A stretch of DNA of 55,826 bases from an uncultured SAR86 cluster bacterium (lineage in GTDB: Bacteria; Pseudomonadota; Gammaproteobacteria; Magnimaribacterales; D2472). The position numbers were made by a program, and so were the translations under genes. The notes under the pieces were generated by a model that saw nothing but the letters and a program-made list of their open reading frames with translations, was not told the origin of the DNA and made no database searches. Where the stretch lies: contig CACPCZ010000007.1 of the NCBI GenBank assembly GCA_902632555.1, positions 1 to 55,826 on the forward strand, written 5' to 3'. The number at the start of each line of letters is the position of its first letter. Within the stretch, counting starts at the first letter, position 1. Below, piece by piece: positions 29,054-54,835 of the stretch.

Positions 29054-29653
29054 TTAGCTCCTTACTTCGAGAATACTATCAATAATTCCATAAGTCTTTG
29101 CTGCTTTCGCATCTAAAAAATTATCTCTGTCAGTATCTTTTTCAATTTTTTTAATAGTTTGTCCTGTATGCTTAGCTAAAATTTCGTTCACAATTTTTTT
29201 CATATGCAATATTTCTTTTGCATGGATCTCAAAATCTGAAGCTTGTCCTTGAAATCCTCCCAAAGGTTGATGAATCATAATCCTTGAGTTTGGCAGTGCA
29301 AATCTTTTATCTTTGTCTCCTCCAGCAAGCAATAATGCTCCCATACTTGCAGCCTGACCAATGCACATAGTAGATATAGATGGCTTAACGAATTGCATAG
29401 TATCATATATAGCTAAACCAGCAGATATACTTCCACCTGGTGAGTTAATATATATTGATATGTCCTTCTCTGGATTTTCTGATTCTAAAAAAAGCAGCTG
29501 GGCAACAACAAGATTAGATATGTAATCATCAATCGGTCCTGATAAAAAAATAACTCTTTCTTTAAGCAATCGTGAGTAAATATCAAATGATCTCTCTCCT
29601 CTAGGAGTTTGTTCAATAACCATTGGGATAAGAGCTTGTTGAATATCTGTCAT
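29054..29653 (-). CDS. clpP: ClpP, proteolytic subunit
   Basis: 199 residues. Serine-protease triad S103 (GQAASMGA), H128 (MIHQPLGG) and D177 (TDRDNFL). Assembles as a double heptamer with ClpX. Starts eight bases after the tig stop, and clpX follows three bases later, so all are probably on one transcript. Confidence 0.97.
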
Positions 29654-54218: not shown

Positions 54219-54246
54219 CTTGAATTTCATTAAAATATCCCTATGT
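54219..54246 (+). promoter_or_regulatory. Sigma-32-like heat-shock promoter of hsp20
   Basis: -35 CTTGAAT (54219-54225), 13-base spacer, -10 CCCTATGT (54239-54246), seven of eight to CCCCATNT with the N position free. Predicted start near 54253, giving a leader of about 85 bases. Confidence 0.7.
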
Positions 54247-54256
54247 ATATCTTGAT

Positions 54257-54278
54257 GGAAATGCCATAACGGATTTCC
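54257..54278 (+). promoter_or_regulatory. Upstream hairpin of the hsp20 leader
   Basis: GGAAAT (54257-54262) pairs with ATTTCC (54273-54278) and CC (54264-54265) with GG (54271-54272), leaving G54263 bulged and a five-base loop. It lies at the predicted 5' end of the transcript. Confidence 0.55.
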
Positions 54279-54315
54279 GCTTAACAAGTGTAGTCTTAAC
54301 AGATACACATTTATT

Positions 54316-54336
54316 TAGTCGCTTTAAGGAGGACTA
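54316..54336 (+). promoter_or_regulatory. ROSE-like RNA thermometer hairpin over the hsp20 Shine-Dalgarno
   Basis: UAGUC (54316-54320) pairs with GACUA (54332-54336) and CUU (54322-54324) with GAG (54329-54331), with G54321 bulged and a UAAG loop. The AAGGAGG Shine-Dalgarno (54326-54332) lies in the loop and 3' arm. Bases 54319-54323 read UCGCU, the U(U/C)GCU motif conserved in ROSE thermometers, including the unpaired G known to be needed for heat response. Confidence 0.65.
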
Positions 54337-54338
54337 TT

Positions 54339-54791
54339 ATGATACTTAATTTTACAGATCCATTTTTCACAACTCGTGTTTTGGGTTTTGAACCATTATT
54401 CGATAGGTTGCAGAGACTCTCAGAATCAAATGAGCGTTCATCAAGCTATCCTCCATATAATATTAGTAAAGATGGTAATTTATTTGCTATCGAGATTGCC
54501 GTGGCAGGTTTGTCAAAAGAAGATATTCAAATCGAGCTTGCTGATGGTGTTTTGTCGATCAGTTACGATGGCCCATCAACTGAAGTAATTAATGGAGAAA
54601 ATAAAGTTGTCTATCAAGGAATTGCTCAAAGAGCTTTTAAACAACAGTTCACTCTTTCAGAAGATGTTGTTGTTCAAGGTGCTGAGCTCATAAATGGTTT
54701 ACTTACAGTAAATCTTGAAAAAATAATTCCTGATGAGAAAAAACCAAGAATGATTGAGATTAAATCACCAAAAAGAATCTCAAATAAGTAA
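54339..54791 (+). CDS. ibpA: Small heat-shock protein, Hsp20/IbpA class
   Basis: 150 residues. Alpha-crystallin domain with YPPYNI, FAIEIAVAGLSKEDI, the IbpA-class segment QRAFKQQFTLSEDV, and NGLLTVNLE; C-terminal anchoring motif IEI near 141. It holds unfolding proteins during heat stress. A strong AAGGAGG precedes the ATG but can be masked by the leader hairpin. The promoter is sigma-32-like. Followed by a terminator. Confidence 0.95.
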   Translation: MILNFTDPFFTTRVLGFEPLFDRLQRLSESNERSSSYPPYNISKDGNLFAIEIAVAGLSKEDIQIELADGVLSISYDGPSTEVINGENKVVYQGIAQRAFKQQFTLSEDVVVQGAELINGLLTVNLEKIIPDEKKPRMIEIKSPKRISNK

Positions 54792-54806: not shown

Positions 54807-54835
54807 ATGGGGTGCATAATGCACCCCATATGTTT
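54807..54835 (+). terminator. Terminator of hsp20
   Basis: Ten-base-pair stem ATGGGGTGCA / TGCACCCCAT (54807-54816 and 54820-54829) with a TAA loop, followed by ATGTTTT. Confidence 0.85.

Follow-up and report, generated by a model that had tools for sequence, protein, structure and literature searches.

Does the small heat-shock gene of a streamlined marine bacterium carry both a heat-shock promoter and an RNA thermometer of the ROSE type, and what part would then be played by the hairpins that precede the one covering the ribosome-binding site? The question is raised by the leader of hsp20 in a stretch of 55,826 nucleotides from the SAR86 cluster, hereafter the window. The original prediction had placed a sigma-32 promoter and a ROSE-like leader at 54219-54336.

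The hsp20 gene and its promoter

The closest named relatives of the window are SAR86 cluster genomes (AH-321-C05, 99%, and a SAR86A scaffold, 97% protein identity). The streamlined marine lineage supposed at the outset proves to be SAR86, whose genome assemblies measure about 0.7-1.8 Mb; that of the window has 1.04 Mb, is 83% complete and contains a single hsp20 match. The encoded Hsp20, with its ATG at 54339, is recognized by Pfam HSP20 (PF00011, E 3.3e-13). The features discussed below are the following, with the basis of each in parentheses:

54219-54225, + strand: -35 element CTTGAAT of a sigma-32-like promoter (direct reading and pattern count)
54239-54246, + strand: -10 element CCCTATGT of the sigma-32-like promoter, after a 13 nt spacer (direct reading and pattern count)
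54256-54279, + strand: hairpin 1, with a 7-pair stem, bulged G54263, a CC/GG apex and a 5-nt loop (folds, covariation, SAR86 model match)
54288-54308, + strand: hairpin 2, with a 5-pair stem, bulged G54293, UCU/AGA and a 4-nt loop (fold, covariation)
54316-54336, + strand: hairpin 3, the Shine-Dalgarno hairpin (fold, motif conservation, clamp-pair change)
54319-54323, + strand: UCGCU, the ROSE anti-Shine-Dalgarno motif (direct reading)
54326-54332, + strand: Shine-Dalgarno AAGGAGG (direct reading)
54339-54791, + strand: hsp20, a small heat-shock protein gene (IbpA-like, 150 aa; reading frame and Pfam)
54807-54829, + strand: terminator-like hairpin 3' of hsp20 (pattern scan only)

The last of these is a strong, terminator-like inverted repeat, ATGGGGTGCATAATGCACCCCAT, lying between hsp20 and a DsbD-like gene, and its position suggests that hsp20 is probably transcribed alone, as a one-gene transcript.

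Among 199 related genomes, hsp20 was found in 155, with one match in each of those listed except G087, where the gene is split into two pieces, and G166. From the 155 genomes, 109 leaders were read, which fall into four families of the order labelled f1-f4: f1 supplies 81 (32 from the window's genus and 49 others), f2 8, f3 11 and f4 9. An N in two of the leaders was taken as A by the fold scripts.

The promoter letters CTTGAAT-N13-CCCTATGT are present as claimed at 54219-54246. In the whole window the pattern CTTGAA-N11-16-CCCNATNT has a single occurrence, against 0.07 expected, and 7 of 100 shuffles contain one or more. A looser pattern, TTGA[ACT]-N11-17-C[CT].., which was written only after the leaders had been seen, stands upstream of 81 of the 109 SAR86 leaders, as against 0.6-3.3% of shuffled regions (30/32 in the window's genus, 31/49 in the rest of f1, 5/9 in f4, 11/11 in f3, and 4/8 in f2). 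The window's assembly encodes RpoH, which scores 381.7 bits where the cut-off is 323.1. It also has a similarly built promoter, TTGAAC-N-CCCAATATA, 49 bases 5' of grpE (L265:1501-1550; the gene is identified by PF01025, E 3.6e-45), likely a second one for sigma-32. Genome-wide, the promoter pattern yields 12 matches against 8 for its reversed control and is therefore not specific on its own. Delineating a sigma-32 regulon by pattern was abandoned: among nine inspected of the eleven other matches, only that of grpE resembles a promoter with a gene after it.

Structure and conservation of the leader

About 90 bases separate the -10 element from the ATG of hsp20. Two hairpins with one bulged G each had been described here, the second masking AAGGAGG; a single bulged G per hairpin holds, as does the masking, whereas the fold contains three hairpins and the masking one is the third. 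Each bulged G (G54263, G54293, G54321) sits on the 5' strand of its hairpin. In the predicted fold, hairpin 3 covers the Shine-Dalgarno sequence by pairing UAGUC-[G54321]-CUU with GAG-GACUA, and UCGCU at 54319-54323 indeed lies opposite AAGGAGG at 54326-54332. Taken alone, the fold of 54245-54345 is mildly better than those of shuffled sequences (z -1.93; 7 of 200 as good); the strong evidence for the leader structure is comparative and does not come from the single-sequence fold. The motif TYGCT-N4-GGAGG occurs twice in the window against 0.03 expected. Its other occurrence, TTGCT-N4-GGAGG at 29319-29332, falls inside a frame read as ClpP (29054-29653, minus strand) and is taken as chance; this ClpP-like frame is followed by a ClpX-like frame.

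Relatives ought, if the original prediction holds, to keep both the motif and its pairing. U(U/C)GCU is present at most 45 bases from the start codon in all 109 SAR86 leaders, and compensatory changes are seen, clearly in hairpins 1 and 2 and only between families in hairpin 3. Two alignments were made. A1 comprises 79 of the 81 f1 leaders (one with an N and one duplicate being left out), and A2, aligned by MAFFT on sequence only, comprises 43 of the 49 f1 leaders outside the window's genus and none from within it; one duplicate and, by hand, L047, L058, L067, L079 and L080, with differing loop or stem lengths, were left out of A2. Across its 43 leaders, 97.4% of the cells of the three-hairpin structure are paired, compared with 91.0% after shuffling and 30-46% (maximum 45.7%) when the structure is slid. 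Double-change cells number 69 against a shuffled 20.2, a value reached by none of 500 shuffles, and nine pairs show double changes against a shuffled mean of 6.3 (2 of 500 reach nine), while the count of pair types is no higher than in shuffles (21 against 20.1). Within these leaders both sides change in 6 of the 9 family-helix pairs of hairpin 1, the loop of which is usually one base longer in the window's genus, and in 3 of the 6 of hairpin 2. Hairpin 3 shows both-side changes in none of its 7 pairs, 5 of which never vary.

Because hairpin 3 is nearly invariant inside f1, its covariation rests on changes between families. The clamp pair beside UYGCU is G-C in 79 of 81 f1 and 6 of 9 f4 leaders, C-G in all 11 f3 and all 8 f2 leaders, and A-U in 12 of the 25 leaders examined elsewhere in the class. 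Among the 161 leaders which this analysis covers, the three pairs flanking UYGCU form in 144, 147 and 103, and the shuffles reach at most 120, 117 and 92; 7 leaders were missed for want of the motif and 2 further loci never anchored, and where a leader has two AGGA the better-pairing one was used, in the shuffles likewise. One analysis chose its hairpin by pairing, so that the 100% paired which it gives is not independent evidence.

A covariance model, R1, was built on the 43 leaders of A2, none of them from the window's genus. Its sole significant match in the window's assembly is 54250-54341 (60.1 bits, E 1.6e-10; the next has E 9.17), and an unfiltered search of the window gives 60.1 bits against 14.8 for the runner-up. 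At E<=0.1, R1 matches 79 of 110 SAR86 genomes, of which the f1 members from genera other than the window's are for the most part the source of the model. As to the groups unused in building it, the genomes matched by R1 are 32 of the 34 in the window's genus, 12 from f4, 10 from f2 and none from f3; the two missed in the window's genus likewise lack an hsp20 match. The match in the f2 genome G119 lies away from the hsp20 leader; weak matches of this kind, in G048 and G119, lack a UYGCU-Shine-Dalgarno leader, and a second thermometer in SAR86 was rejected as a candidate. Outside SAR86, R1 matches the leader of hsp20, and in register with its start codon, in 4 of 29 other gammaproteobacterial genomes (L224, L225, L201 and L206; E 0.0007-0.011), L224 and L225 being of the same genus. 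Over 61 loci of other ROSE/IbpA leaders there are 11 matches at E<=1. The best-scoring locus outside SAR86, L205 (E 0.00025), is matched out of register, the match ending 68 bases before the start codon, and L236, an Rfam ROSE locus of another class, gives a weak match (E 0.058). The E. coli ibpA leader is not matched by R1; a weak match at L199 (E 0.22) precedes ibpB.

Relation to known ROSE elements

Rfam distinguishes RF00435 (ROSE), which we take to be the family described from rhizobia, and RF02523 (ROSE_3), presumably the short ROSE-like thermometers of Pseudomonas ibpA. The search with these families that had been proposed as a check leaves the window below cut-off: RF00435 gives 18.9 bits against a cut-off of 45 (E 3.1), though aligned end to end, and for ROSE_3 no match is listed at E<=10. 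RF00435 exceeds its cut-off in none of 60 related genomes. When 34 loci of SAR86 relatives were scanned, the ROSE_3 cut-off was passed by one, L106 of f2 (44.1 against 43 bits), and sub-threshold ROSE_3 matches were obtained for six f3 leaders (L097, L101, L099, L098, L095 and L100; E 0.0009-0.016). The other 27, like four other gammaproteobacterial loci scanned alongside, have no ROSE match listed, with limits of E 0.5 and 0.1. A reading by Rfam alone was rejected: a class-wide ROSE_3 scan gave matches in 62 of 274 genomes at E<=1 and none over the cut-off, and weak ROSE_3 matches also arise in 5 of 14 control genomes, e.g., Bacillus subtilis.

As far as the accessible portions of two papers on ROSE-like thermometers go, the anatomy of such an element consists of UYGCU facing the Shine-Dalgarno sequence with a bulged G, in the hairpin nearest the start codon, and its context is a small heat-shock gene that has a sigma-32 promoter (PMC3669281; PMC11342760). 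The window's leader has UCGCU (54319-54323) imperfectly paired with AGGA in the hairpin nearest the start codon, which in the predicted fold contains one bulged G, G54321; its three hairpins fall within the two to four of a ROSE leader, a small heat-shock gene follows, and compensatory pairing is strong in hairpins 1 and 2 and confined to between-family changes in hairpin 3. The best reading is that the leader represents a divergent ROSE-type element by anatomy, below the Rfam cut-off, with thermosensing predicted. The earlier reading of a sigma-32 promoter with a ROSE-like leader is supported in both parts, by the UYGCU:AGGA geometry and bulged G, and by the promoter pattern of the SAR86 leaders together with RpoH.

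Several known systems can be set beside it. In the text available of PMC3669281, the short ROSE-like elements of Pseudomonas ibpA share U(U/C)GCU against the Shine-Dalgarno sequence in the last hairpin, the small heat-shock gene and the sigma-32 promoter, whereas the window has an extra middle hairpin and stems of low G+C. RF00435 shares with the window the bulged G and CC/GG apex of hairpin 1, as well as a Shine-Dalgarno hairpin (with UUGCU). The E. coli ibpA leader likewise has UCGCU opposite AGGA, and its hairpin 1, ggacgc-G-CC-UGAU-GG-guguuc, displays the same bulged-G form as SAR86; it differs from the window by a different middle hairpin and a higher G+C, and in escaping R1. ROSE-G, from what the accessible part of its description gives, also has a Shine-Dalgarno hairpin with a bulged G, but it reads CUGCU and has a further bulged G on the Shine-Dalgarno side, where the window has UCGCU and, in the fold, no opposing bulge (PMC12857270). 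For the marine environment, the consulted excerpt of PMC3230580 reports predicted ROSE-like motifs 5' of ibpA and hspD in Nautella R11, of the Roseobacter clade, and describes ROSE-like control as common in alpha- and gamma-proteobacteria. The marine host, the small heat-shock genes and the recognition of the motif by sequence are shared with the window; R11 is an alphaproteobacterium outside SAR86, however, and is likened here by motif description and not by letters. Since ROSE-like motifs are named in R11 in that excerpt, marine ROSE itself is not new. A literature search among open-licence papers found none joining SAR86 and an RNA thermometer.

Control of hsp20 and the role of the upstream hairpins

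Considering these features together, it is highly probable from sequence evidence that hsp20 is under sigma-32 transcription combined with a divergent ROSE-type thermometer leader. RpoH (sigma-32) would drive transcription of hsp20 from 54219-54246, and the mRNA, starting presumably a few bases downstream of the promoter, would fold into the three hairpins. UCGCU would pair imperfectly with AGGA, leaving one bulged G, so that the Shine-Dalgarno sequence is clamped at normal sea temperature, and warming would loosen hairpin 3 and allow ribosome binding. Hairpins 1 and 2 would most likely insulate and stabilize the leader so that the weak hairpin 3 folds correctly. SAR86 is streamlined; if the proposal is true, a sigma-32 promoter and a ROSE-type leader, both kept on a lone hsp20 match, would place protein quality under the direct control of temperature in the range of sea water.

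At 37 °C the isolated Shine-Dalgarno hairpin of the window has a computed energy of -5.8 kcal/mol, and the medians are -5.3 for the window's genus, -4.9 for the rest of f1, -4.5 for f4, -3.5 for f3 and -2.9 kcal/mol for f2. The thermosensing hairpins of Pseudomonas range from -4.1 to -7.6 kcal/mol, according to the sections available of PMC3669281; the energies of the window, f1 and f4 fall within this range, and the medians of f3 and f2 are weaker and outside it. Computed melting is shallow: in the window, the paired fraction of the isolated hairpin 3 core falls from 0.98 (35 °C) to 0.60 (70 °C). The known thermometer of E. coli ibpA melts about as gradually (0.99 and 0.59); no usable switching temperature can therefore be derived from it. 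For the whole leader, mean openness of the Shine-Dalgarno sequence rises from 0.27 to 0.47 over 5 to 55 °C, though not steadily in L092. Nearest-neighbour temperature scans cannot tell a static hairpin from the known thermometers, and no support is drawn from them.

Such shallow melting would also suit a static structured leader, in which hairpin 1 protects the 5' end of the mRNA, hairpin 3 merely lowers translation and all heat control belongs to sigma-32. Hairpin 1 does start near the inferred transcription start, and a hairpin I has been proposed to stabilize the mRNA (PMC3669281, in the text at hand). However, the UYGCU:AGGA geometry with its bulged G, which is what makes ROSE hairpins labile, is kept across families, and in tested relatives stabilizing changes reduce or abolish heat induction, as reported in the accessible sections of PMC3669281 and PMC11342760, so that this explanation appears quite improbable. 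That the hairpins arose by chance in an AT-rich leader could be argued from the z of merely -1.93, but this is refuted by the covariation and by the held-out R1 match, and it deserves practically no credence.

An unlikely but less remote alternative, drawn by analogy with E. coli, is that the leader serves chiefly as a binding site for Hsp20 itself, the oligomer docking on the bulged-G hairpins until heat titrates the protein onto aggregates; self-repression of this kind and thermosensing could coexist. From the part of PMC10474464 that was available, E. coli IbpA represses its own mRNA via the 5' UTR, Arg93 and Tyr34 being needed, and alanine mutants of R97 and K98 lose repression. R93 is kept in all 109 SAR86 proteins and Y34 in 108, with an unreadable X in the remaining one, and the bulged-G form recurs in the upstream hairpins. 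Nevertheless, at positions 97/98 every one of the 32 proteins from the window's genus has Q/Q, the other 49 f1 proteins have Q (47) or L (2) at 97 and Q at 98, and all 11 of f3 have L/Q, though in all these groups the leader is conserved. In f2 a K or R stands at 97 and in most cases also at 98, and f4 has K98 only. The window's protein has R93 and Y34 with no positive charge at 97/98, and K at 96 in its genus might compensate for the lost charge. In a comparison with 30 further proteins neither R93 nor F95 varies, so that R93 may be structural.

Returning to the two-level control by promoter and thermometer, the form of the upstream hairpins was surveyed by taking, per leader, the most stable hairpin 5' of UYGCU with one single-base bulge, whatever the base or strand. 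The bulge is a 5'-strand G in 105 of the 109 SAR86 leaders (3 A, 1 C), against a chance rate of 2.8% of 327 shuffled leaders and 24 of 1450 window tiles. Two 5'-G hairpins occur in tandem in 73 of the 109 leaders (23/32 in the window's genus, 44/49 in the rest of f1 and 6/11 in f3), and one was found in each f2 and f4 leader. The number of bulged upstream hairpins thus varies within the order (L081-L089 and L102-L109 versus L001-L080). Among 31 further leaders of the class, including that of E. coli and the SAR86 f3 leader L228, 29 have the anchor motif, and their best hairpin, which is not always the leader's first, carries a 5'-G in 18, another bulge in 4 and none in 7 (shuffles: 5'-G in 4.8% of 290). 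A set of 30 Rfam-selected ROSE loci of the phylum, only one of them from within the class, is biased in that Rfam's model has the bulge; it shows a 5'-G in 21, another bulge in 6 and none in 1, with 2 unanchored. E. coli ibpA and the ROSE locus L238 (CGGGAU-G-CCC-UUC-GGG-GUCCCG) are near the SAR86 form GAU-G-CC-N4-GG-GUC.

The upstream bulge is implicit in the Rfam ROSE consensus, and a published search descriptor permits up to 2 unpaired bases at this position, to judge from the accessible portion of PMC11342760. The function of the ROSE 5' hairpins is described as not fully understood in the available text of PMC3669281, and the parts of the ROSE literature that were searched attach no role to the bulged G of the upstream hairpins. 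It can be speculated, with limited confidence, that upstream ROSE hairpins constitute a conserved recognition or sensing module and are not mere scaffolds. The module would tentatively be a hairpin whose 5' strand has one bulged G at a distance of 2-4 pairs from the loop, U-[G]-CC-N4-GG-G being the typical form. It would conceivably, if rather doubtfully, be shared by SAR86 with E. coli and further gammaproteobacteria and with ROSE elements of another class, occurring in tandem in most of the SAR86 leaders read. A somewhat unlikely but conceivable mode of action is reading by a common partner, e.g., a small heat-shock protein, or melting in concert with the Shine-Dalgarno hairpin. What can be reused is the bulged G fixed in the upstream hairpins, together with a set of natural variants: with the varying hairpin number, more than 100 of them are at hand for probing the role of upstream ROSE hairpins. 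In another gammaproteobacterium, at L205:1298-1418, it is the first leader hairpin, rather than the one over the Shine-Dalgarno sequence, that resembles the SAR86 Shine-Dalgarno hairpin (AGTCGCT..GAGGACT), a likeness hinting that upstream and Shine-Dalgarno hairpins may share one module.
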